Shown piece by piece: positions 634 to 26,753 of a stretch of DNA of 64,000 bases (within the stretch, counting starts at the first letter, position 1; each line of letters begins with the position of its first letter). Both the position numbers and the translations under genes were made by a program. The notes under the pieces were generated by a model. That model saw only the letters and a program-made list of their open reading frames with translations. It was not told the origin of the DNA and searched no databases. Source of the stretch: Kofleriaceae bacterium. GTDB lineage: Bacteria > Myxococcota_A > Polyangia > Haliangiales > Haliangiaceae. The stretch spans positions 1 through 64,000 of the forward strand of contig JANTGM010000007.1 in NCBI GenBank assembly GCA_024762925.1. Direction: 5' to 3'.

Positions 634-754
634 TCAATCATCCAAGTTCGAGAGACTCGCCAGTCTTGTTACTGGCAGACACAGGGACCGAGCATCAATC
701 CGAGTGCAACTTGTAGATCGGTGATGAGACAGAGAGCTTTATGGAATGAAACAA

Positions 755-782
755 AGAAGGCAGCCTATCTAGGCTGCCTTCT
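755..782 (-). terminator. Strong intrinsic terminator for the 7761-813 operon
   Basis: A perfect 12-bp stem (755-766 with 771-782) with a 4-nt loop is followed, reading leftwards on the minus strand, by the T-rich tail TTTGTTT. It lies 30 nt after the stop codon of the 48-codon ORF and separates it from the lipoprotein at 124-633. Confidence 0.85.
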
Positions 783-812
783 CAATTCGCATGTCTTGCT
801 ACTTAGCTTATG

Positions 813-959
813 TCAGCTCTTGGGTGGAACGCCGATACAGGGGAACCCCACACTGCCGCACGAGAGCGCCAGCGTTTCAAAGACCTTCTCAGAGACGATC
901 ATGGGCTTCTCGTAGACCTTGCGGTCTTTTGCTTCGTTGTTCTTATCTTCTTCATTCAT
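813..959 (-). CDS. 48-residue candidate RiPP precursor peptide
   Basis: ATG at 959 to TGA at 813 encodes 48 residues, preceded by AGGAG at 969-973 with a 9-nt spacer. The first third is charged (Glu/Lys/Asp-rich). Then comes YEKPMIVSEKVFETLALSCG, followed by a short tail rich in Gly, Pro and Val with a second Cys and ending KS. Y16-x-x-P19 followed by hydrophobic residues resembles the leader motif bound by PqqD-like recognition domains in lasso-peptide leaders (family knowledge). The two cysteines, C34 and C41, are six residues apart. It is the last gene before the terminator and lies 34 nt after the FG-GAP gene, in an operon encoding a PqqD-like protein and a radical SAM/SPASM enzyme. The precursor role is inference; the alternative is a small protein of unrelated function. 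Confidence 0.7.
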   Translation of the reverse strand: MNEEDKNNEAKDRKVYEKPMIVSEKVFETLALSCGSVGFPCIGVPPKS

Positions 960-968
960 AGCCAAAAG

Positions 969-973
969 CTCCT
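969..973 (-). promoter_or_regulatory. Ribosome binding site supporting the 48-codon ORF
   Basis: AGGAG on the minus strand, 9 nt before the ATG at 959 and inside the short gap after the FG-GAP gene. It is one of the clearest Shine-Dalgarno sequences on this strand and argues that the tiny ORF is translated. Confidence 0.6.
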
Positions 974-993
974 ATCTCTTAATAGCACGCACG

Positions 994-3900
994 CTACTCG
1001 TCAAACAACACTTCGAATAGTCCAGTCGCAGTGCCAGCACCACCGGCCAGCCAGTCTGCCCAAGCTAAGTCGGGCAGGCCATCGTTGTTGACATCGCCAG
1101 CCCAGATGGCTGGAACGGTTGGTGGAGAGAACAGCGCGTGAGAGTTGACGAAGCCAACTGGCCGTATCACAACGTGGTCCCGTGTATTCGTCCCAACATC
1201 GCCCGTGGGAATTGTTCCCCCGTACCAGATGTGCATTCCGCCAGAAGCGCTAATCACAAGATCCTCAATTCCATCACCGTTGATATCGGGGCTGGTTGTG
1301 AGAGCGTTGTTGGCCACACCCGTACCGATTCGAGTACCTTCTGACGATTCGGCAGTTATCTTGGTGAGGTAGTTTGCCGAGTTGGTGAGGTCGATCGTGC
1401 CAGTCGTGCTACCTGAGACGATCCAAACCGTGCCGTCAGGTGAGCCTTCGAGATTGCCACCAATGACGATATCTCGAAACCCATCGCCATTTTGGTCGGC
1501 GATTGAGCCCATCGAGACTCCAAACTCAGGTGCTGTGTCGGCAGTGGTGTTGTTGATTCGCAAGTCCGTTCCAGGAACGAAATCTGTGAAGTTCATGCCA
1601 GGCACAAGCAGAGTGCGTCCCCGAAGCACGAAGATGACATTGTCATCCGTGCCCGGATCAACATCAGATTGGTAGGTAATAGCCACGTCGCCAACACCAT
1701 TACCGGCACGAGTGTCACCGAGGTAATCGAGGCGCTCGCCAAACTGGCTACCATTGACGGCATCTTGTGGGTTCTCAAAGATGAGTCCTGCAAGGCCGAG
1801 CATGTCGGCGGAGCTGGCGTTGTTGCTGAGCGTGATGGTGTCGCCAACATCGAGTGTGCCACCGTAGATGATCGCCACACCACCGTCGCCACCAGGGTTG
1901 GTCGTAGACTTTCCGCCACCGCTGCCACCAGTTGGAACACCGATGATGAGGTCTTCCGGAGTGCCGTTGGCATCGAGCTGGCCACTGGCAAGCTGAGCAC
2001 CAAGGCCGCCACCTGTGAACCAATCACCACCAGTGCCAGCAATAGTGATTTCCAAGTCACGACTTGTTGCAGGGATAACTCCAGGAACAGAGAGCGTGCC
2101 GTTGTGGAAGATGTAGATGCTGTTGGAGAGCGGTGCTGCAACCGCAAGTCCGTCACCCGTTCCGTCCCAATCGAGACGAGCCATGCTGAAGCCAAAGATT
2201 TCCACGGCCGTGCCTTCGAGCACAACATCAGGAGTTACATCGGTACCTGCTGGAGTCACAACGCCCTCAGCGCTTCCGTAGTAGATGAAGACGCGACCTT
2301 GGAATCCGTTTGCCAATGGAGACGCCACAGCGACGTCATCAAAGCCATCGGAGTTGAAGTCGCCCGATACCAGACGCATTCCGAATCGGTCGCCATCGGC
2401 GCTACCACCGGCAACCACAGCTCCCGTTCCATCAAAGTCGGGGATGACCGGGCCGATGCTGGCAGGATTTGAGCGGTTTCCAACAGCATCCACGGCAATC
2501 ACACCAAGGTGGTAGGTGGTGCCTGCATCCAGTGGAGTAATGGTTGTGCTCTCGTTGACAATCGCGCCAGGCCAAATTTCACCCTGGGTCTCAAACGTTG
2601 CAAGGTCGGTAGCGAACGGGGCGGTGGCAATGCGGACCACATAGGTCGAGTCGAGCACTGCACCCCAAGAGAAGTCGATGCTTCGGTGATCGGTCGCTGT
2701 TGCAACCAAGCCGACTGGAGCATCGGGTGGTGTTAGGTCGACGTCGACGCTAATCGAGGCGCTGCCCGAGCGCGTATCGAGCGTCGAGTTGGCAACTGCA
2801 TCGAGAGTGTGGGTGCCTGCGGTGAATGCCACTGGTGCATCCGTGCAGAACTGTCCACCACCAAAGGTCGTTGGAAGGTCGGCACCACCATCGAGGTTCA
2901 CGGTAACCGTGACCGTGGCTTCGCTAACCGTCACGCAAACCGTGGTCTCAAGAGCACCGGCGCCGTTGATGGTTCCTTCGGAGACTCCGAGCAAGCCATC
3001 GCCAACAGGGTCTTCAAAGTCGACATCGATGTCTTCAAGTCGAATGTCACAGCCCGCGGTGCTCGCCTCGTTGCCAAGAGCATCGCTCACTCGTGCGCGA
3101 ACATCGTTGTTACCGGGTAGGAGGTCAATGTTCAGCGGAGCTCCGAGATCAGGAGCTGCAACCGTCGTTGTACCAGCACTGTTCACAACATCAACATCGC
3201 GAGTTGCGGCGAATGGAGCAATCACAGCAACGGTAATCTGAAAGCCATTGCTAAGGTCGCCATCAGCATCGTTTGCGACGTTGCGTGCGAGAGTTTCGCC
3301 GCAGTCGAGGCTCGCTGGGCTAATGAGGGAGAGCGATACGCCTGGAGCTTCGGTGTCCCAAGTCACGTCACGTCCATCGCTGGTCTGAAAGTTATCGCTG
3401 TTGACGACGCGAGCGGTGCATGTTGCCTCGCCTTCAGAGTTTGCATCGCCATCAAGAGTGACGTTTGAAACCGTTGTGAGTCCGCCTGCAGGTACAACCT
3501 CTGAGCTCTCGCCCTGGCCACAATCCACAAAGACCGTCTCGCCTTCGCAGGCCGTGTCGACCGTGACGGTGAAGTTTGCTTGCATTCCGTTTACCGGATC
3601 GCCATCCGAGTCGGCGGTCACGATTGCCGCTGGGCCATCAATCGAGATCGCACAGCCGTCGAGAATCACCGGAACATCGAAGCCGGCGCTGCATACGTTG
3701 CCCGCGTGGTCTTGCGTCACGAAGCTCACAGCGAAGGTTCCTGGAGAAGTGAACTCGGCGAGTTCACTGGCGCTGTTGCCATCTTCGTCGATGGGGATTG
3801 CATCGAACTCAAGAGCATCGCGGAAGAACGAAGCGTCTTCGCCCTCGGTATCGTTTTCTTCACCGTCATCAACGCTGCCTGTCCAAGTCATTTGGATGCC

Positions 3901-4731
3901 GTTGCCAATGTCGCCATCGGTATCGTCATCTGGAGTGACAGTGACACCATTGGTGGGAACGTTCAGTTCGCAAGTAGGAACAACCGTGTCAACGCGAACG
4001 GTGTTGGTTGCAGATGCCTCGTTGACGCTGCCACTCACACAAGTCGCGCGAATCGCTTGAACGCCTTGAGCAAGAGTCGTTGCGAAGGAAGCAGCACCAT
4101 CAGCGTCAGCGGTAACGGTGCCAAGACTTGCTTCGCTTCCCAAAGCCACATCCAGAACAAAAACTTCAACCTGGAAGCCAGCACCACTTGTGATGTCTAG
4201 ATTCGCTTGGAAGTTTGGAAGAGCGGCATCGCTATCATTGGTTGAATTGAGAACGGGAATGGGTGCGAAGAACTCGTTGTCGATTGGGCCTTCGGCGATG
4301 TTCAGATCGCAGGCGGCATCAGTCACAACAGTGACGACAACTTCATCGCTTCCCGAGCCACAACCATCGTCGGAGGTGCCGGTGACTTCAAGAGTGACTT
4401 CGCCCGCAGGAAAGGTGACACCTTCAAAGGTCACATCACCATCGGCGTTTGAGGTCGCGGTAATTTGCTCGACCGCATTGTCCGCGTTGGTAACCGTCAG
4501 CGTGAAGTCGTCGCCGCTCGACAAATTCGAGCGAACCGTGACATCACTCTGAATGCCAGCACGCGCGGTATCGCTATCGTTTGCGCTGGAGAGGTTGCCC
4601 CCGGTGACCGGGTTCTGAAAGACAACAACGATTTCCGATGGACACGTTGGTCCGTCTCCACAAGCCGAAGCAATTCCGGCTGTTGTCAGCAGCGCCAGTA
4701 GCGCTCGTCCATTCGCGAGTGTTTTCAACAT
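994..4731 (-). CDS. Large surface lipoprotein with Ig-like, Fn3-like and FG-GAP repeats
   Basis: The 1245-residue product has a signal peptide with a lipobox ending at Cys24 (IASAC). Residues about 30-650 hold repeated acidic Ig-like modules containing NDSD or DxDGD segments. Residues about 660-750 look like a fibronectin type III domain. From about 770 to the end there are FG-GAP/VCBS units with calcium-loop sequences such as DFNSDGFDD, DQNGDGFRD and DINGDGIED. This is the architecture of an integrin-alpha-like propeller on an adhesive stalk, probably on the cell surface. The start is supported by GGGGA six bases before the ATG. It sits 65 nt after the radical SAM gene and 34 nt before the candidate precursor, so it may be co-transcribed with the peptide-modification genes. 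No enzymatic motif was seen. Confidence 0.85.
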   Translation of the reverse strand: MLKTLANGRALLALLTTAGIASACGDGPTCPSEIVVVFQNPVTGGNLSSANDSDTARAGIQSDVTVRSNLSSGDDFTLTVTNADNAVEQITATSNADGDVTFEGVTFPAGEVTLEVTGTSDDGCGSGSDEVVVTVVTDAACDLNIAEGPIDNEFFAPIPVLNSTNDSDAALPNFQANLDITSGAGFQVEVFVLDVALGSEASLGTVTADADGAASFATTLAQGVQAIRATCVSGSVNEASATNTVRVDTVVPTCELNVPTNGVTVTPDDDTDGDIGNGIQMTWTGSVDDGEENDTEGEDASFFRDALEFDAIPIDEDGNSASELAEFTSPGTFAVSFVTQDHAGNVCSAGFDVPVILDGCAISIDGPAAIVTADSDGDPVNGMQANFTVTVDTACEGETVFVDCGQGESSEVVPAGGLTTVSNVTLDGDANSEGEATCTARVVNSDNFQTSDGRDVTWDTEAPGVSLSLISPASLDCGETLARNVANDADGDLSNGFQITVAVIAPFAATRDVDVVNSAGTTTVAAPDLGAPLNIDLLPGNNDVRARVSDALGNEASTAGCDIRLEDIDVDFEDPVGDGLLGVSEGTINGAGALETTVCVTVSEATVTVTVNLDGGADLPTTFGGGQFCTDAPVAFTAGTHTLDAVANSTLDTRSGSASISVDVDLTPPDAPVGLVATATDHRSIDFSWGAVLDSTYVVRIATAPFATDLATFETQGEIWPGAIVNESTTITPLDAGTTYHLGVIAVDAVGNRSNPASIGPVIPDFDGTGAVVAGGSADGDRFGMRLVSGDFNSDGFDDVAVASPLANGFQGRVFIYYGSAEGVVTPAGTDVTPDVVLEGTAVEIFGFSMARLDWDGTGDGLAVAAPLSNSIYIFHNGTLSVPGVIPATSRDLEITIAGTGGDWFTGGGLGAQLASGQLDANGTPEDLIIGVPTGGSGGGKSTTNPGGDGGVAIIYGGTLDVGDTITLSNNASSADMLGLAGLIFENPQDAVNGSQFGERLDYLGDTRAGNGVGDVAITYQSDVDPGTDDNVIFVLRGRTLLVPGMNFTDFVPGTDLRINNTTADTAPEFGVSMGSIADQNGDGFRDIVIGGNLEGSPDGTVWIVSGSTTGTIDLTNSANYLTKITAESSEGTRIGTGVANNALTTSPDINGDGIEDLVISASGGMHIWYGGTIPTGDVGTNTRDHVVIRPVGFVNSHALFSPPTVPAIWAGDVNNDGLPDLAWADWLAGGAGTATGLFEVLFDE

Positions 4732-4765
4732 GTCTTTCCCCAGTTCTTCCTAATTAGTGTCGAAG

Positions 4766-4795
4766 CGTTTTTGCGGCGCTGGGCGCCGTTTTTGC
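4766..4795. repeat. Hairpin flanked by a 9-bp direct repeat, between radical SAM and FG-GAP genes
   Basis: CGTTTTTGC occurs at 4766-4774 and again at 4787-4795. Between and overlapping them is a GC-rich hairpin (stem 4774-4779 with 4783-4788, 3-nt loop). Read on the plus strand, the hairpin is followed by TTTTT, so it has intrinsic terminator form, but in the direction opposite to the flanking genes. On the minus strand the tail is A-rich, so it should not stop the operon transcript. It could end an antisense transcript or be a protein-binding site. Confidence 0.45.
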
Positions 4796-4796
4796 C

Positions 4797-5957
4797 CTAA
4801 AGTACTTTCAGCGCGGATGAGCGCCTACCGCCTGATGGCAGCCTGTCATGCTGTCCATCGGCCGCTACGCGATTCCATGTAGGTGGAAGTTGCGTTTCGG
4901 TCGCAGGAATTACTCCGCGATCTCGTAAAGAGTCGCGAACAGCCACTGTGTGCCGGCAGGCCTCCAGTGACGGACCTCTCATCTCACCATGCTCGATCTG
5001 AGCCATTGCATGGCACCTGGTGCAATACGAGCGCACCGGGCATTCATTACACTCTTGAATCGTCGCCCACTTAAGGCCGCGAACTTCGGTGAGCCCATCG
5101 GATGCGCTCCAGATACTGGCAAAGCTCTGCTTGCGAAGATCTCCTACAGGCATTGGCAGGCTATTGCACGGCCACACCTCGCCTTGCGGGTTGATGGCAC
5201 AGACGTCCTTGCCTGCGCGACACGGAGTTTCACCTAGAGGTCGTAAGTCCTCTTCGTAGGCGTTTGAAAAGCCCTGATCGATGAACGTTGCCATTGTATC
5301 GCCATAGAAATTCGCCATGTCTTCCTGGCTCATTCGAAGTCTTGTTGTCTTCAGGTCTCCGTCCTCAATCGCGGTGATTTTTGGATCAAACGTAAATCGA
5401 GCTCCAAGACTATCGGCCATCTCAGCAATGGCCTTGAGGTCGGCGACATTCGATTGCATCACAGGTGTTTTGAGAACCACGGGAATCTTGCGAGCAACCA
5501 TGCGTTTAATGGCATCCGTGCTGCGCTTCCAGGAGCCTTCTTGCCGAGTCACATGCTCGTGAATCGCGGGCTTTGATCCGTAGATTGAAATATCGATCTG
5601 CAGTGGGCGAATCGTTGCGAGAAAGTCAGCGCGCTTTTCTGTGATGTGATGACCGGTGGTAAGGACTTTGATCGCAAACCCAAGATCGTGCGCCGTTTGC
5701 AAAATCTCGTCGGCATCACGGCGCATAAAAAACTCGCCGCCCATAAACGTCAAAAAGAGAACGCCCGCTTTGGCAAGTTGCTCGAGGATGTCGAAAACCT
5801 CTTCCGATGAAAGCTCGTTGTGGCCAACGTGCTCTTGGTAGCAATGCGAACAGCTGTAGTTGCACACGTCGGTGACTTGAAACGTGACATAGCTTGGCGC
5901 TCCACAAGCACTAGCTTGTTCGGCCAATAAGTCCGCTGCTCTGGTTTGCACTTTCAT
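4797..5957 (-). CDS. Radical SAM/SPASM peptide-modifying enzyme
   Basis: This 386-residue protein carries the radical SAM cluster motif CX3CX2C at Cys32, Cys36 and Cys39, then a GGE motif at 73-75 for SAM binding. A SPASM-type auxiliary cluster domain follows, with Cys246, Cys253, Cys264, the group CX2CX5CX2C at 303-315, and Cys334. Members of this family install thioether, carbon-carbon or similar crosslinks in ribosomal peptides or mature quinohaem-type proteins. Its ATG overlaps the stop of the HPr-kinase-like gene (ATGA), which indicates translational coupling. With a PqqD-like protein upstream and a two-Cys peptide downstream, the likely substrate is the peptide at 813-959. The last 35 residues, rich in Arg, Pro and Ser, are not part of the conserved fold. 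Confidence 0.92.
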   Translation of the reverse strand: MKVQTRAADLLAEQASACGAPSYVTFQVTDVCNYSCSHCYQEHVGHNELSSEEVFDILEQLAKAGVLFLTFMGGEFFMRRDADEILQTAHDLGFAIKVLTTGHHITEKRADFLATIRPLQIDISIYGSKPAIHEHVTRQEGSWKRSTDAIKRMVARKIPVVLKTPVMQSNVADLKAIAEMADSLGARFTFDPKITAIEDGDLKTTRLRMSQEDMANFYGDTMATFIDQGFSNAYEEDLRPLGETPCRAGKDVCAINPQGEVWPCNSLPMPVGDLRKQSFASIWSASDGLTEVRGLKWATIQECNECPVRSYCTRCHAMAQIEHGEMRGPSLEACRHTVAVRDSLRDRGVIPATETQLPPTWNRVAADGQHDRLPSGGRRSSALKVL

Positions 5958-6823
5958 TCGTCGTCTGCCTTGACCCAGGGTATCGGGGCACCTGCTTGTT
6001 CACAAGTGATACCAAGCACTTCCCCTACACTTGGGTGCTTTGCAAATTTGAGTTCGTAACAGGGCACCGAAGAGACGAGGTCGGCCACAAGGCTCAAGAT
6101 CTTTGCGCTGGTCTTGGGTGCTCTCGCGTACGTGACGACATGTCTGCACAATTCGTTCATGGCTTCAGCGGATCTGATCTGCTTTCGCAGGTGGGCAGGT
6201 GCCTGAACCAGAAAGTTTAGCGAAGCTAGTTTGCGAGACTCTCCATGGGGCAACCCCTCACTGCCTTTGAACGGAGCCACTGCCACAGACCAACTCCCGC
6301 CGGATTTACTGACAAAGAGCAGCTCATCAGCGAGCTTCAGCGCACCACAGTGATCCGAGAGCATCGTGGAAATCGTTGACTTGCCTGCACCGCTCACTCC
6401 AGAGAAGACCAGTGCGCCATCGGGTCCAGCAACCGAGGAGGAATGCAAGATGAGGGTGTCGCGATGAGGCAGTGCAAGCGATGCCGCGATTCGAATAATG
6501 GCTTCCAGACCGCTTGGCGCCTGATGGCTCTGAAAGTGCGCATGCAGCTTGCCGTTCTCGCCAATGTCGATGTGTCCACGTGCACACTTTCTCGACAGCA
6601 CAAGTTCACGATCGGAGAAACGCACTGTTTCGAAGGCGGGATATGTGGGCCCTTCGGGATCGTCTTTGCCGAGCCCGGGAACCACCTCTAAGTCAATGCG
6701 AACATCTACTGGACCGCCCCGAGATGGGTACGCCTCGTAGGTGCCAAGACGCTCGGGTGAGCATGGACCGCTGATGGCCACTTCAAACTCTACACCCTCA
6801 ATATTAAAGGTAAAATCTGTCAT
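5954..6823 (-). CDS. HPr-kinase-like P-loop protein of a PqqD/radical SAM system
   Basis: The 289-residue protein has a Walker A motif GVSGAGKST at 142-150, followed by LADE at 164-167. This is the layout of HPr kinase/phosphorylase-like proteins that travel with PqqD homologues in RiPP and related loci. The first 120 residues are a variable beta-rich region. No HPr protein is encoded nearby, so a classical phosphotransferase role is unlikely; an ATP-dependent role in peptide maturation or in phosphorylating a peptide or sugar is inferred. The chosen ATG at 6823 directly follows the methyltransferase stop and has AGGA just upstream. An upstream start would overlap the methyltransferase by 46 bases. 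Confidence 0.8.
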   Translation of the reverse strand: MTDFTFNIEGVEFEVAISGPCSPERLGTYEAYPSRGGPVDVRIDLEVVPGLGKDDPEGPTYPAFETVRFSDRELVLSRKCARGHIDIGENGKLHAHFQSHQAPSGLEAIIRIAASLALPHRDTLILHSSSVAGPDGALVFSGVSGAGKSTISTMLSDHCGALKLADELLFVSKSGGSWSVAVAPFKGSEGLPHGESRKLASLNFLVQAPAHLRKQIRSAEAMNELCRHVVTYARAPKTSAKILSLVADLVSSVPCYELKFAKHPSVGEVLGITCEQAGAPIPWVKADDE

Positions 6824-6825
6824 TC

Positions 6826-7485
6826 CTAGGTTGCGTGAGGCTTGTGCAAATGGAGCACACAGTGGTTCCACAGCGCATCTGATAGCCGAGATGGCAACTT
6901 TGGATGCATGCGCAGGGCATAGGGATATCGGCGGATGCTTCGAAAGAGCTCAACCTCATGAACACGCAAGCCTGCATGTCGCGCGGGCCTTGCGAGGTCC
7001 TCGACGTCGAGCAGCGCAAACTCATCAATGGGCTCTTGCTTGCGCCCCAAGACCTGTCGAATGCTCAGGCCGCGCCCAAACTGATGGACAGCACACCGCC
7101 CTCCTGCCTTTAGGACCCGGGCGATCTCGCCAAACGCGTGACGGGCTTCCATGTAGCGAATGACACCTTGTGCCGCAATTACGGCATCGAAGCTGCCTGA
7201 AGCAAAGGGCAGATGATGTCCATCTGCTCGGGCGATTGATGCCGACTTCCTCTTTGCCAGACGCAACATCTCGATGGACAAATCAATGCCCACAACCCGC
7301 TCTTCGTTGCTCACATTGAGCAAGCGCCCAGTGCCACACCCCAGGTCCAAAACCCGCCCCCGAGCCAAGAGGCTGCGAAGAGACTTCTCAATTACTATGT
7401 ATTTACGCTGTGTTGCGAGATGCCCAGCATCATAGCCCGCTGCGCTGCGATCATACCAATCGGTAACCGTCTCGATGGAGGGCAT
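6826..7485 (-). CDS. Class I SAM-dependent methyltransferase
   Basis: This 219-residue protein has the Rossmann motif I LDLGCGTG near residues 46-53, an acidic IDLS strand end, and the post-motif LPFASGSFDAV typical of the Methyltransf_11/25 group. The C-terminal part (after about 160) is basic and resembles lipid- or quinone-type methyltransferases less clearly, so the substrate cannot be assigned. It lies between the PqqD-like gene (6-nt gap) and the HPr-kinase-like gene (2-nt gap). The context suggests methylation of the peptide product or of a leader-bound intermediate, but this is inference. Confidence 0.85.
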   Translation of the reverse strand: MPSIETVTDWYDRSAAGYDAGHLATQRKYIVIEKSLRSLLARGRVLDLGCGTGRLLNVSNEERVVGIDLSIEMLRLAKRKSASIARADGHHLPFASGSFDAVIAAQGVIRYMEARHAFGEIARVLKAGGRCAVHQFGRGLSIRQVLGRKQEPIDEFALLDVEDLARPARHAGLRVHEVELFRSIRRYPYALRMHPKLPSRLSDALWNHCVLHLHKPHAT

Positions 7486-7491
7486 CGACGC

Positions 7492-7761
7492 TTAGCCGTC
7501 AGCCTGCATCAGCCCTTGTGCCACGAAGGACTCCAAGCACTCGGTGACATCTTTGCGGGCCGTCTCCAGATCGACCTCATATGCCAAGACAAGCTCCCTG
7601 GCAGCCTCATCGACTGTCACGCCATCGGCGCCAAGTGACCACAGAAGCGTGCCCGAGCTATTAAGCGTGTGCATCTTGTTGTCGTCTGCTGTGATGACAA
7701 ACGCGACCCCATCGAGGACACGGCCAGCGGTGAGTGGGTGCTTGCGATAAATACGAGCCAT
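7492..7761 (-). CDS. PqqD-like peptide recognition protein
   Basis: With the ATG at 7761 the product is 89 residues, the usual size of PqqD-family proteins. It shows the family pattern: a beta-hairpin (AFVITADDNKMHTLNSSG), the aromatic TLLW, then helices with VDEAARELVLAYEVD and a C-terminal CLESFVAQGLM. PqqD homologues bind leader peptides and deliver them to radical SAM enzymes; here the partner would be the enzyme at 4797-5957. The reading frame stays open upstream to a GTG at 7890, but that extension has no PqqD similarity. AAAGG about 10 nt before 7761 supports the shorter form. It is the first gene of the operon. Confidence 0.82.
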   Translation of the reverse strand: MARIYRKHPLTAGRVLDGVAFVITADDNKMHTLNSSGTLLWSLGADGVTVDEAARELVLAYEVDLETARKDVTECLESFVAQGLMQADG

Positions 7762-8005: not shown

Positions 8006-8578
8006 ATGCTGAAGCTTCGCAACACACTTTTCCTAGCCGCTCTCGCGTCGATTGCCCTCGGCGGCAGTCTTCTCCGAGCACAGCCTGCCGGAGACGATGC
8101 CCCGGAAGTAACAGCGCCGGTTCAGAAAGAAGCCAATCTCACACCAGCTGAGATGCAGTCCGCTTCAGAAAAATACCTTAAGGAAATGCAGGACATCCTG
8201 GTGCGGGTGGTCGAGTTGCAGAACCTGGCACGCAAGCAAAAGGATGTCATCAAACTCAACTGCGTGAACGATAAACTCCTACAGGTCAAGCAGCTTCTCA
8301 ACATCGCAGAAGCCGGGCGCACAGATCTCATTGAAGCCATCGCCCAACAAGACTCCGACTCCACCGCTCATCAGTTTAGCCAAATCTCGATCGCGAAAGA
8401 AAAGACCGATGGTCTCCACGGTGAAGCAGAAGGCTGCATCGGCGAAGAACTGATCTTCCTCGGTCCTACAGAAGTGACTGTTGATGACCCAGGTCTTCCA
8501 GACGACCCAACTGGTGAGGACGCTTTCGATTGGAGCGATGTCATCGAACCTCCCGGCTACGCGAGCCCTTTCCTCTAA
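8006..8578 (+). CDS. Exported protein of unknown function, first gene of the polysaccharide operon
   Basis: The 190-residue protein has a cleavable signal peptide (cleavage probably near residue 25, after SLLRA). A helical, Lys/Glu/Gln-rich middle (about 45-135) has a single Cys in KLNCVND, a second Cys follows in EGCIGEE, and the C-terminus is acidic (DDPTGEDAFDW). The helices suggest a periplasmic coiled-coil or bundle protein. It is followed after 34 nt by an outer-membrane barrel gene and then sugar-nucleotide genes, so a role in export or envelope anchoring of the polysaccharide is plausible. No family is recognised. Confidence 0.8.
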   Translation: MLKLRNTLFLAALASIALGGSLLRAQPAGDDAPEVTAPVQKEANLTPAEMQSASEKYLKEMQDILVRVVELQNLARKQKDVIKLNCVNDKLLQVKQLLNIAEAGRTDLIEAIAQQDSDSTAHQFSQISIAKEKTDGLHGEAEGCIGEELIFLGPTEVTVDDPGLPDDPTGEDAFDWSDVIEPPGYASPFL

Positions 8579-8612
8579 GCTTTTCTCTTAAACTTCCTCC
8601 GAGCCTAGCTTC

Positions 8613-9857
8613 ATGAAATTTTCCCCAACCGCAACTGTGGTTGCCTTCCTCGCACTTGGAAGCACCGCAGTTTTCGCGCAAGACGCCATTGTTCAGGGGT
8701 CTGGTTACCAAGTCAGCGAGAACACGGTCGTGCACCCTTCCGTGGGTGCGCAAACCGGGTTTGACTCCAACGTTTTCTATGAGGATGGCTCGACAACTGG
8801 TGCGGGCCTACTCCAACTCTCAGGGGCCCTCACTCTTGCCCCTATGGAAGATGTCTCGGGAAAGGGCGGAAGCCCTCCTGATTACACCTTTACTGCGGGT
8901 GCTCGCTTTCAGTATCAGGAATATCTAAGCAGCAATCCCAACGTTACGTCGCAACGCAACCTGGGGCTTGGAGCAGATCTCGAGCTTGGGCTTCTGCAAT
9001 CTGGGCAGTTTCCCGTTGGCATCGAGAACCACTTCATTCGCACCAATCGGCCAACCAACTTCGAGAACAACACCACCATTTCTCGGGACATCAACTCGCT
9101 AAGAGCTGGTATCAAGTACATGCCCGAGGGTAAGAACATTTCGGGGCGGCTGTCGTACACCAATACCGTCGACTACTTCGAAGGTGAGAGCACGTTTGCA
9201 AACCGCTTCCTAAACGAGTTCAAGCTCGGTGTGGACTGGCAGTTTCTTCCCATCACCCGCTTCTTCGTGGAAGGGAGCTATGGGCTAAACAGCGGACTTG
9301 GTGCCAACTCGACAAAGATCAGCTCCCAGCCAATGCGCGGAATCGCTGGTGTTGCTTCCGCAATTACTGAGAGCATCACGGTGCGAGCTCATGGTGGCTA
9401 TGGAATTGGCGCGTATTCGAGTGGTGCGAGCTATTCGACGTTCCTGTATCACCTTGAGGGCGGCTATCGCTACAGCCCGGTAGGTCGGGTGCGTCTCATC
9501 TTCGACAGAGACTTTCAGGACTCGGTCAACGCAAACTTCTACGGCGACTACAAGCTTAAGCTCGCAGTCGATCAACAAATCGATCGGGTCATGCTTCAAG
9601 CTCACGTCACAGGGATTCTGCGCAACTACCAAGGTGGCCTCGTAGTTGACTTGGGAGGCGGACAAGCGGCTCGCGATGACGTCATTCTGAGTACGGGAGT
9701 AGCGGCAAATCTCGAAGTTCGAGAGTGGATTGCGGTTAACGCCAGCTACATGCTTGCTAGCGTTCAAACGGACTACCTCTCCATGGCCGATGGAGAAATC
9801 GATGACCCCAGCTTCGTTCGCCATCAGCTGATGGTCGGTGCGACCGCTGCCTTCTAG
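8613..9857 (+). CDS. Outer-membrane beta-barrel protein
   Basis: The 414-residue protein has a signal peptide (AVFAQ, cleavage near residue 22) followed by alternating hydrophobic and polar strands separated by Gly/Asn/Asp-rich turns, ending in an aromatic residue (GATAAF). This is the pattern of an outer-membrane barrel of the BBP2 or OmpL-like kind seen in exopolysaccharide loci of delta-proteobacteria. It probably serves as a secretion pore or surface anchor for the polymer. There are no cysteines to suggest a lipoprotein. It lies 14 nt before rfbF and is likely co-transcribed. Confidence 0.8.
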
Positions 9858-9871
9858 TACTCGGTGCAATC

Positions 9872-10642
9872 ATGAAAACCGTAATCCTCGCCGGAGGGCT
9901 CGGCACGCGCATTTCCGAAGAGACGCATCTGAAGCCGAAGCCGATGATCGAGATCGGTGGTCGGCCGATCTTGTGGCACATCATGAAGATGTATTCCGCC
10001 CACGGCTTGAACGACTTTGTGATCTGCTGCGGCTACAAGGGCTACATCATCAAAGAGTACTTTGCGAACTACTTCCTGCACATGTCGGACGTGACATTCG
10101 ACATGACCGAAAACAGCATGGAGGTACATCAACGCAAAGCAGAGCCATGGCGGGTAACGCTGGTTGATACTGGAGACTCCACGATGACCGGTGGCCGCCT
10201 CAAGCGGGTAGCGCCCTTCATTGAGAACGATGAATCGTTTTGCTTCACCTATGGCGATGGCGTGAGTGACGTCGATATCGCGAAGCTCATCGCGTTTCAC
10301 AAGACGCATGGCAAGTGGGCCACGGTCACTTCCGTTCGTCCTCCTGGTCGCTACGGTGCATTGCAGCGCGAAGGTGATGCGGTCACCGGCTTCTCAGAAA
10401 AACCCCGAGGAGATGGCGGACAGATCAATGGCGGGTTCTTTGTGCTATCGCCCAAAGTGCTCGATCTGATCGCTGGTGACGACATGCCTTGGGAGCGAGA
10501 GCCCATGAACACCCTGGCACAGCGCGGCGAGATGATGGCATTCGAACACTCGGGCTTCTGGCAACCCATGGACACGCTGCGCGAGAAGAACCAGCTGGAA
10601 GAGCTCTGGGAGTCGGGCAAAGCGCCCTGGAAGACCTGGTAA
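9872..10642 (+). CDS. rfbF: Glucose-1-phosphate cytidylyltransferase
   Basis: This 256-residue protein makes CDP-glucose from glucose 1-phosphate and CTP. The nucleotide-binding signature GGLGTR sits at 8-13, followed by [18 protein letters not shown], and later the conserved [12 protein letters not shown] and RPPGRYGAL segments. Length and sequence fit the RfbF/DdhA family closely. Its TAA shares an A with the ATG of rfbG, so the two steps of the CDP-sugar pathway are translationally coupled. Confidence 0.95.
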
Positions 10643-24528: not shown

Positions 24529-24818
24529 GGGAGATTGGCGCCGAATTCCATCAGCGGTTTTGAACAAATGGCTATCGTCTGGTTCAACACAGTTCCTCTA
24601 AAATGGTCCACGGCAGTTGGGTAGGCGGAAGCGGCCATACTGTCCACCAGGTCTCGGTCACCGTCAAACTCGTGATAGCTCTCGCTGGAGATACTGTGTC
24701 TCCCACCGGAGCAACTGTTCATTCGCTCACTCGATTCCTTCACTCCTGCGATAGCTCCGCCCGATTCCTTGATAATGGCTTGGTGTGTGCGATGCTCCGT
24801 GCACGAACCCGGGCTCGT

Positions 24819-26753
24819 ATGTGCGGCATTGCAGGATACTTCGAAGCACCCGACGCTGTCCGGGCGCGTTCCCTGGACGTCGCGGCGCAAGAGATGGCGC
24901 GTTCGATGCGGGCGCGCGGTCCCGATGACCAAGGAACTTGGACCGACGAGAGAAGCGGCGTTGCCCTTGCCCATGCTCGCTTGTCCGTTGTCGAGGTAAG
25001 CCAGGCAGGGCATCAACCAATGACCTCTGCGTGTGGTCGCTACGTCCTTGTCTACAACGGCGAGACCTACAACACGGAAGAGCTGCGAGAGGAGCTGGGG
25101 CCGGACGGCTCATGGCGCGGCCATTCCGATACCGAGGTGGTGCTCGCGTGCTGTGCAAGATGGGGCGTTCGACGCACAGCCGAGAAGCTCCTTGGAATGT
25201 TCGCCTTTGCGCTGTGGGACGCAGAGGAGCAACGCCTCACCCTCGTGCGAGATCGGATTGGCATTAAGCCTCTGTACTGGGGGCTGTTGGATGGAAGCTT
25301 CCTTTTCGCATCAGAATTGAAAGCACTGATGACGATTCCCGGATGGAAGAGAGAGATCGATCGGGACGCATTGGCCTCGTATTTCCGCTTTGGCTACGTT
25401 CCAACACCCTGGTCGATTTTTGCGGGGGTTCACAAACTTGAGCCCGGGACTATTCTTACGTGGCAACGCGGGAGAGAGCCGAGCATTGAGCAATTCTGGA
25501 GCTTTCGAGACGTTGCTCGCTTTGGTGGCGAACACCTACTTGCGCTTGGAGACACAGAGGCAACTGACGCGCTCGATGCTCTGATCTCGGATGCCGTGAG
25601 CCGCCGGATGATTGCTGATGTGCCGGTTGGAGCGTTCCTATCCGGAGGTATCGATAGCTCCGTTGTTGTCGCCGCGATGCAAGAGCTCTCGAGCAAGCCT
25701 GTGCACACGTTCACAATTGGCTGGCAAGAAGCCCAGTACAACGAAGCTGAGCACGCGGCAGTCATCGCTTCTCACTTGGGCACGCATCACACCGAGCTAC
25801 ACGTGAGCCCAGAGGACGCGCAGGCGGTGATTCCCCATCTAGCCGACTACTACGATGAACCATTCGCAGACAGCTCACAGGTTCCAACGTTCTTGGTAAG
25901 TCAGCTGGCCCGGCAAGATGTCACTGTGGCCTTGTCGGGAGACGGCGGCGACGAGCTTTTGTGCGGCTACAATCGCTACCTTTGGGGTGAGAAGATTTGG
26001 AATCGGACTGGGCACCTGCCACTAGGTCTGCGCAAGTTGGCAGCTCGCTCGATCACCAGACTATCTCCGGGGGATTGGGATCGAATCACCCAAGCGGTTC
26101 CCAAAGCGTTGCGTCCACCGCTACTCGGCATGAAGCTTCACAAGGTCGCTAGCGTCATGGCTGTGAACGATCAGGCTGCCCTCTATCGTCGCCTTGCCAG
26201 CCTTTGGCCCAATCCCACCCAACTCGTTCCACAGGCTTTGGAAGCGAAGAACGTCTTATGGGACGCAGGCATGGCAAGCGACTTCCCGAGCTTTCGCGAG
26301 AGAATGCAGGTTTGGGATGCGCTCACCTACCTGCCTGACGACATTCTCGCAAAGGTCGACAGAGCATCCATGAGCGTATCTCTTGAGGCGAGAGTTCCCC
26401 TTCTTGACCATCGGATTGCCGAGTTTGCGTTCCGATTGCCAGGGCACCAACGTGTGCGAGATGGCCGCGGAAAGTGGCTTCTGCGCGAGGTACTCGCTCG
26501 TCGCGTGCCAAGACATATGTTCGAGAGGCCCAAGATGGGCTTTAGCATTCCGATTGCCGAATGGCTTCGGGGGCCGCTTAGACCGTGGGCCGAGAATTTG
26601 CTGTCTCCTGAAGCGCTTGGCTCAGGTGGGCTGCTCGATTTACGCCCGATTCGCCAGGCTTGGCAGGAACATTTGACGGGTCGCGCAAGCAATGAGGGGC
26701 AGCTATGGGCGGTCTTGATGTTCCAGGCCTGGCGGCAGCATTGGTCGATATAA
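24819..26753 (+). CDS. asnB: Glutamine-hydrolysing asparagine synthetase-type amidotransferase
   Basis: The 644-residue protein begins MCGIAGYF; Cys2 is the catalytic nucleophile of the class II glutaminase domain once Met is removed, which fixes the start at 24819. VYNGETYN and the DRIGIKPLYWG segment complete that domain. The synthetase domain has the PP-loop SGGIDSS near 276 and SGDGGDELLCGYNRY. Homologues inside polysaccharide loci probably amidate uronic or other acidic sugars, so the substrate may not be aspartate. The 290-nt region before it contains the divergent start region for the ABC gene and an inverted repeat GGAGA-N7-TCTCC near 24686-24702. Confidence 0.9.
   Translation: MCGIAGYFEAPDAVRARSLDVAAQEMARSMRARGPDDQGTWTDERSGVALAHARLSVVEVSQAGHQPMTSACGRYVLVYNGETYNTEELREELGPDGSWRGHSDTEVVLACCARWGVRRTAEKLLGMFAFALWDAEEQRLTLVRDRIGIKPLYWGLLDGSFLFASELKALMTIPGWKREIDRDALASYFRFGYVPTPWSIFAGVHKLEPGTILTWQRGREPSIEQFWSFRDVARFGGEHLLALGDTEATDALDALISDAVSRRMIADVPVGAFLSGGIDSSVVVAAMQELSSKPVHTFTIGWQEAQYNEAEHAAVIASHLGTHHTELHVSPEDAQAVIPHLADYYDEPFADSSQVPTFLVSQLARQDVTVALSGDGGDELLCGYNRYLWGEKIWNRTGHLPLGLRKLAARSITRLSPGDWDRITQAVPKALRPPLLGMKLHKVASVMAVNDQAALYRRLASLWPNPTQLVPQALEAKNVLWDAGMASDFPSFRERMQVWDALTYLPDDILAKVDRASMSVSLEARVPLLDHRIAEFAFRLPGHQRVRDGRGKWLLREVLARRVPRHMFERPKMGFSIPIAEWLRGPLRPWAENLLSPEALGSGGLLDLRPIRQAWQEHLTGRASNEGQLWAVLMFQAWRQHWSI

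Follow-up and report, generated by a model that had tools for sequence, protein, structure and literature searches.

What is made by an operon in which genes for a PqqD-like protein, a methyltransferase, an HprK-like P-loop protein and a radical S-adenosylmethionine (SAM)/SPASM enzyme are followed by those for an FG-GAP lipoprotein and a peptide of 48 residues? The question is raised by a stretch of 64,000 nucleotides (nt), hereafter the window, which covers positions 1 to 64,000 of contig JANTGM010000007.1 of a Kofleriaceae bacterium (assembly GCA_024762925.1) and is the beginning of contig 7 in a genome of 6.8 Mb and 246 contigs. The six open reading frames (ORFs), in the order given, are co-directional on the minus strand from 7761 to 813. 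An initial annotation, made from the letters of the window, had described them as six genes on one strand with close or overlapping ends and one strong terminator, and this description is borne out by Pfam and NCBIfam matches, by the intergenic gaps (6, 2, -4, 65 and 34 nt, 5' to 3') and by a terminator stem at 783-754, 29 nt beyond the end of the peptide gene; the negative gap is a 4-nt overlap (ATGA) of the HprK-like and radical SAM genes. The cassette is very probably an operon for a ribosomally synthesised and post-translationally modified peptide (RiPP). The reading that we favour, with a probability of about 0.6, is that the radical SAM enzyme would cross-link a Cys-containing core, the kinase would phosphorylate the C-terminal Ser, and the peptide would be a partner of the FG-GAP lipoprotein.

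A precursor family conserved beside its enzymes

An AGGAG ribosome site lies 9 nt ahead of the ATG (at 959) of the 48-codon ORF, for which neither Pfam nor NCBIfam gave a matching family; in fact, none of 62 peptides of the precursor family is matched in NCBIfam. A first profile, built from 11 peptides and searched against 318 genomes of the class (Polyangia), matched the peptide in 67 of them, and a broader profile gave matches in other classes of the phylum too. Loci were collected in two sets: 69 from the class, and a further 20 that came out of the phylum search, all but two of them (18) outside the class. HprK, PqqD and radical SAM genes adjoin the peptide in nearly all loci fetched, allowing for contig edges; this recurrence is far above chance. 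The initial annotation had proposed to look for a conserved short Cys peptide beside homologues of the radical SAM enzyme; such a peptide is found in the class and in the phylum loci. A short gene for a precursor divided into leader and core is therefore conserved beside modifying enzymes, as in RiPP systems generally.

The conserved core across loci consists of the HprK-like protein, PqqD, the radical SAM enzyme and the peptide. The methyltransferase, which the initial annotation had noted as co-encoded, shares the strand of the cassette in the window's family alone and is an optional local add-on outside the core. In the window's family and order the gene order PqqD-(methyltransferase)-HprK-radical SAM-FG-GAP-peptide is kept, with radical SAM proteins 45-61% identical; a search with this protein returned as nearest named cassette-bearing relatives two metagenome-assembled genomes, a Kofleriaceae bacterium (JAGPCY010000002) and a Myxococcales bacterium (JAEUJY010000167). 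Another genome of the window's genus (G002) carries a diverged cassette without FG-GAP, at locus L035, whose peptide ends in Thr; the window-type cassette was not found in it.

The peptides share a simple architecture. In the window's family and order their consensus is YExPAVxSxEVFETLALSCAKANxFxCPGGNPxRS. Over the whole family the leader motif YxxP is near-invariant (WxxP in one clade) and is followed by an FE-AL-C pattern, and at least two Cys lie within the last 25 residues in all 85 distinct precursors. The C-terminal residue is Ser or Thr in 71 of these 85 (Ser in 63, as in the window peptide), and Ser or Thr occupies either of the last two positions in 82. By comparison, these residues make up about 13% of the peptides elsewhere, and only 0-22% of other proteins from the same loci end in them. 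When the set is thinned to 61 members that are less than 50% alike, 48 still have a terminal Ser or Thr (binomial P about 8e-31, a value that ignores phylogeny and is indicative only), and in the 20 further loci 15 peptides end in Ser and two more carry it at position -2. The bias is not wholly due to selection by the profile, because many profile matches stopped before the last residue.

The radical SAM/SPASM enzyme and the PqqD-like protein

The PqqD protein scores 47 bits with PF05402 (cut-off 23.4) and is the sole PqqD above threshold in the genome; an Asn is invariant in the PqqD family of the cassettes. In the radical SAM family the CxxxCxxC motif is invariant and seven SPASM Cys are conserved, so that a maturase of the type found with sactipeptides and ranthipeptides stands beside a core containing Cys. 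The nearest solved structure is SkfB (6efn, E 5.5e-43); PqqE is also near, followed further down by 5v1q and 5wgg, which we take to be SuiB and CteB. All four are peptide modifiers, which supports radical modification of the core. No curated radical SAM model is reached: the protein remains below the cut-offs for SkfB (87 of 300 bits), AlbA (69 of 850), StsB (89 of 625), PqqE (103 of 381) and MftC (111 of 265). By analogy with these enzymes, a radical modification of the Cys core appears quite probable. At locus L092 a second radical SAM gene (8795-9970) lies near the cassette on the opposite strand.

The HprK-like kinase and the C-terminal Ser

The HprK-like protein is predicted by AlphaFold2 (AF2) to adopt the P-loop fold of PEPCK and HPr kinase, with a mean predicted local distance difference test score (pLDDT) of 87. 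Its family has an invariant His 15 residues ahead of the first Gly of the P-loop, GxSGxGK[ST]T; the His and the Lys are invariant, and an acidic pair follows, which is Asp-Glu in the window protein and, for most members, Asp with Glu or Asp after it. The same spacing separates H148 from G163 in BsfK, the signature of which is H148-G163-G166-G168-K169-S170-D186-D187 (PMC10368454), and the catalytic signature of lasso kinases is His-Lys-Asp-Asp (PMC9266682). In lasso clusters it is the C-terminal Ser of the precursor that homologues of HPr kinase phosphorylate (PMC8498205, PMC9266682); in the cassettes, likewise, a catalytic signature of this type is found together with a candidate substrate ending in Ser.

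A gene of family PF14907 ('uncharacterised nucleotidyltransferase') adjoins the peptide in several clades. It was detected by profile in 24 loci: families f16 and f24 have it at most 150 nt away from the peptide, whereas in L022, L026, L027 and L031, which are close relatives of the window, its neighbour is PqqD. The genome of the window has a single PF14907 gene, located on another contig. A blastp clustering of all locus ORFs, dominated by antisense ORFs, still pointed to this gene. PsmN of the pseudomycoidin system presumably belongs to the same family. Kinase-bearing lasso clusters often have a nucleotidyltransferase, and PsmN has been linked to hexose addition on phosphoserine (PMC9266682, PMC7533575); the presence of PF14907 in 24 loci parallels the psmK/psmN pair (PMC9266682) and thus supports a lasso-like chemistry of the tail. 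It is mainly because PqqD, kinase, nucleotidyltransferase, YxxP and a terminal Ser recur that we read the kinase as one acting on the C-terminal Ser, a step that, by analogy, we regard as likely.

The FG-GAP lipoprotein

Residues 760-1245 of the lipoprotein, its C-terminal part, are modelled by AF2 as a beta-propeller (pLDDT 87.5), with integrin alpha as best match (E 1e-12), and a lipobox is present in 39 of 51 FG-GAP homologues, most of the others being cut at contig ends. A link between the FG-GAP and peptide genes, which separate transcription would have broken according to the initial annotation, is seen in their pairing: in 40 of the 69 class loci and 14 of the 20 further loci the FG-GAP gene directly adjoins the peptide gene on its 5' side, and the two share a strand in every case. 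In the radical SAM tree the orders 'enzymes-FGGAP-peptide' and 'FGGAP-peptide-enzymes' occupy separate clades, which indicates that the pair stayed together through rearrangement. Moreover, the whole genome of the window contains about 14 FG-GAP genes, so that this adjacency is not due to chance.

Because about 60% of loci, with differing gene orders, have its gene directly on the 5' side of the peptide gene, the FG-GAP protein can be seen as a dedicated surface partner, and the peptide may be displayed at the surface; for the partnership itself the chances appear evenly balanced. The frequent pairing suggests a role at the cell surface over that of a released antibiotic. In two loci (L094:2730-5939 and L114:6205-10242) surface proteins with EGF-like or PPC domains occupy the FG-GAP position 5' of the peptide.

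A model for the product

The steps proposed here rest on analogy with characterised systems. The 48-residue peptide would be produced without a signal sequence. PqqD would bind its leader at YxxP and so bring it to the enzymes, of which the radical SAM/SPASM one would then act on the two-Cys core, the likeliest product being a thioether of sactionine or ranthionine type or a similar radical cross-link, and the HprK-like kinase would phosphorylate the C-terminal Ser. In many relatives the PF14907 nucleotidyltransferase may put further groups on the phosphate, and in the window's lineage the methyltransferase may add a methyl group. Finally, we conjecture that the peptide acts with the FG-GAP lipoprotein, which would be co-expressed and would expose its integrin-like propeller at the surface; the peptide would probably be a ligand, cargo or cofactor of this protein.

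Extended to all loci, the model would define a phylum-wide RiPP class of the Myxococcota, namely cross-linked two-Cys peptides with a C-terminal phosphoserine, some of them decorated by PF14907 enzymes, serving as ligand or cofactor of an integrin-like lipoprotein; this extension is tentative, and we hold it at somewhat less than even odds. If true, it would provide a bacterial peptide-plus-adhesin pair joining lasso-type tail chemistry to sactipeptide-type core chemistry, in a phylum noted for its predatory and multicellular life. With the rule describing the precursors (YxxP, FE-AL-C, a second Cys, a terminal Ser) the class can be searched for, and the enzyme steps can be tested directly by co-expression.

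Alternative explanations

Several observations weigh against the favoured reading, and most of those concerning the kinase speak for a RiPP system in which the HprK-like protein targets another residue, or is a peptide-binding or regulatory P-loop protein, the terminal Ser being kept, for example, for recognition by a protease, a transporter or the surface lipoprotein. In fact, BsfK, a related kinase, modifies Ser3 and not the terminal residue (PMC10368454). In family f24 (L112-L118) the catalytic Asp of the kinase is replaced by Asn, and the peptides nevertheless keep a C-terminal Thr; the kinase may be inactive in this clade, and phosphorylation may for this reason not be universal. The substitution, which could denote a pseudokinase, is recorded in L112, L113, L115, L116, L118 and L183, most of whose peptides end in Thr. 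No HprK is detected within 12 kb at L169, whose peptide ends in Ser, nor on the contig of L037, whose peptide likewise has a terminal Ser/Thr; more generally, variation in the kinase motif does not follow the C-terminal residue (Fisher P 0.37). We consider this alternative unlikely, because the sole relatives characterised in such an operon setting act as kinases of peptides, most members retain the full catalytic signature, and the extreme C-terminal Ser/Thr bias fits the needs of lasso C-terminal kinases. A further difficulty is that neither a leader protease nor an exporter is found linked to the cassette; the C39 peptidase (C124) and the transglutaminase-like matches of the genome sit on other contigs.

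The lack of a dedicated exporter, together with one partner protein per locus and radical SAM profile matches that include MftC and PqqE, would also suit a peptide that is the source of an excised small redox cofactor or signalling molecule, as with PqqA and, for mycofactocin, MftA, the lipoprotein being the enzyme that uses it or its receptor. This is improbable, since the scores are not near the curated PqqE and MftC cut-offs, no associated dehydrogenase or cofactor-use genes were seen, the peptides conserve two Cys and not a Glu-Tyr or Val-Tyr pair, and FG-GAP proteins are not known as redox enzymes. The FG-GAP protein itself bears on the favoured reading in two further ways: it is not present in about 40% of loci, and its orthologues are also encoded by related genomes that lack a close radical SAM homologue or the cassette, several of them beside the p414 gene described below, so that it has an independent existence; a search downstream of these cassette-free genes gave no peptide. 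The same facts count against the idea that the short ORF and the enzymes mature the lipoprotein, with the peptide as activator or chaperone. The place of the FG-GAP gene within the operon in about 60% of loci would agree with it, but the remaining loci have enzymes and peptide without FG-GAP, and it is the peptide that carries the Cys, the YxxP and the terminal Ser that are conserved; we regard the idea as very improbable. That the operon is a plain one, with coincidental neighbours and no RiPP chemistry, is hardly credible, since the co-localisation recurs in about 85 loci phylum-wide and in several gene orders, a conservation that contradicts it.

Organization of the locus and its surroundings

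The features of the cassette are collected in Table 1. For the HprK-like gene the GTG at 6871, where the ORF opens, was dropped in favour of the ATG at 6823, located 2 nt past the methyltransferase stop.

Table 1. Coordinates of the cassette features in the window
Feature	Position	Strand	Basis
PqqD-like peptide chaperone / RiPP recognition element, 89 amino acids (aa)	7492..7761	-	PF05402; ATG at 7761
Class I SAM methyltransferase, 219 aa, optional member	6826..7485	-	PF08241 (Methyltransf_11), E 4e-19
HprK-like P-loop kinase, proposed kinase of the peptide's C-terminal Ser	5954..6823	-	TIGR04352, E 1.5e-8, below cut-off
Radical SAM/SPASM peptide maturase (putative), 386 aa	4797..5957	-	PF04055, E 2e-19; PF13186, E 1e-10
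FG-GAP / Ig-like surface lipoprotein, 1245 aa	994..4731	-	PF01839, E 2e-16; PF13517; lipobox
Precursor peptide MNEEDKNNEAKDRKVYEKPMIVSEKVFETLALSCGSVGFPCIGVPPKS, 48 residues	813..959	-	ATG at 959; AGGAG ribosome-binding site; conserved peptide family
Intrinsic terminator, strong: 13-bp stem and T-rich tail	754..783	-	

Beyond the terminator, on the cassette strand, 124-633 holds a small lipoprotein-like ORF of 169 aa with an LLAC lipobox and no family match. On the other side, positions 8006-9857 encode p190 (190 aa) and p414 (414 aa), which have no Pfam match and are divergent from the cassette; both are kept beside it in several relatives, and p414 also adjoins FG-GAP orthologues in cassette-free genomes (L043, L048, L051). 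A polysaccharide-type cluster follows at 9872-33348, containing genes for a nucleotidyl transferase, epimerases, a UDP-GlcNAc 2-epimerase, an ABC transporter, an Asn synthase with a glutaminase domain, an O-antigen ligase/Wzy and AAA_31 (Wzc-like) proteins. At L137 the protein encoded directly upstream of HprK (4281-5624) has matches to a cyclic-nucleotide-binding domain, and similar-looking ORFs lie upstream of HprK in L138 and L141-L143.

Comparison with known systems

Several features are shared with the phosphorylated lasso systems, of which paeninodin (PadeK), ThcoK, SyanK, pseudomycoidin (PsmK/PsmN) and BsfK were compared: a PqqD-type RiPP recognition element, a YxxP leader, an HPr-kinase-like enzyme, a precursor with a C-terminal Ser (BsfA excepted) and, in many clusters, a nucleotidyltransferase. 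Leaders in BsfK-type clusters carry YxxPxL (PMC10368454), and the cassette peptide has the lasso-type YxxP; in the paeninodin system the leader is bound by a PqqD-like protein, B1, at an affinity in the nanomolar range (PMC5067487). A lasso peptide was rejected as the product, because no lasso cyclase or B2 protease is linked to the cassette: the Asn synthase at 24603-26753 is 17 kb off, in the polysaccharide cluster, and has a glutaminase domain, and the transglutaminase-like B2 protease family (PF13471) gave no match above cut-off in the whole genome. Unlike lasso systems, moreover, the cassette has a radical SAM/SPASM enzyme, a two-Cys core and a linked surface lipoprotein.

With sactipeptide and ranthipeptide systems (SkfB, CteB, AlbA) it has in common a radical SAM/SPASM maturase with two sets of auxiliary-cluster Cys, of which SkfB is the nearest solved relative, and Cys in the core. 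It differs from them in that the recognition element is a separate PqqD protein, a kinase and a surface protein are present, and no curated maturase cut-off is reached. The SynChlorMet cassette (TIGR04249-TIGR04251) also contains an HprK-like protein (ScmC), radical SAM/SPASM enzymes (ScmE/ScmF) and a PqqD-like protein; the profile matches are weak and far below cut-off (ScmE 118 of 400 bits, ScmF 57 of 400, ScmC at best E 2.3e-10 among relatives), and one radical SAM gene is found where two are expected from the model set. To our knowledge the SynChlorMet description includes neither an FG-GAP partner nor a two-Cys peptide. The HprK-related A system (TIGR04352), which lies near polysaccharide genes, shares HprK-like and PqqD-like proteins with the cassette, but here the radical SAM enzyme and the peptide are central, and the HprK-like protein scores 34 bits against a cut-off of 200.

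Literature searches for FG-GAP with radical SAM and RiPP, for SynChlorMet, and for radical SAM with RiPP and HPr kinase found no description of this combination in open-access papers, most subscription papers being outside the search, and the family is apparently undescribed. It combines kinds of enzyme that are already known and, if the favoured reading is true, C-terminal phosphorylation of the lasso type and a core chemistry of the radical SAM/SPASM type, so far seen apart, would be united phylum-wide.

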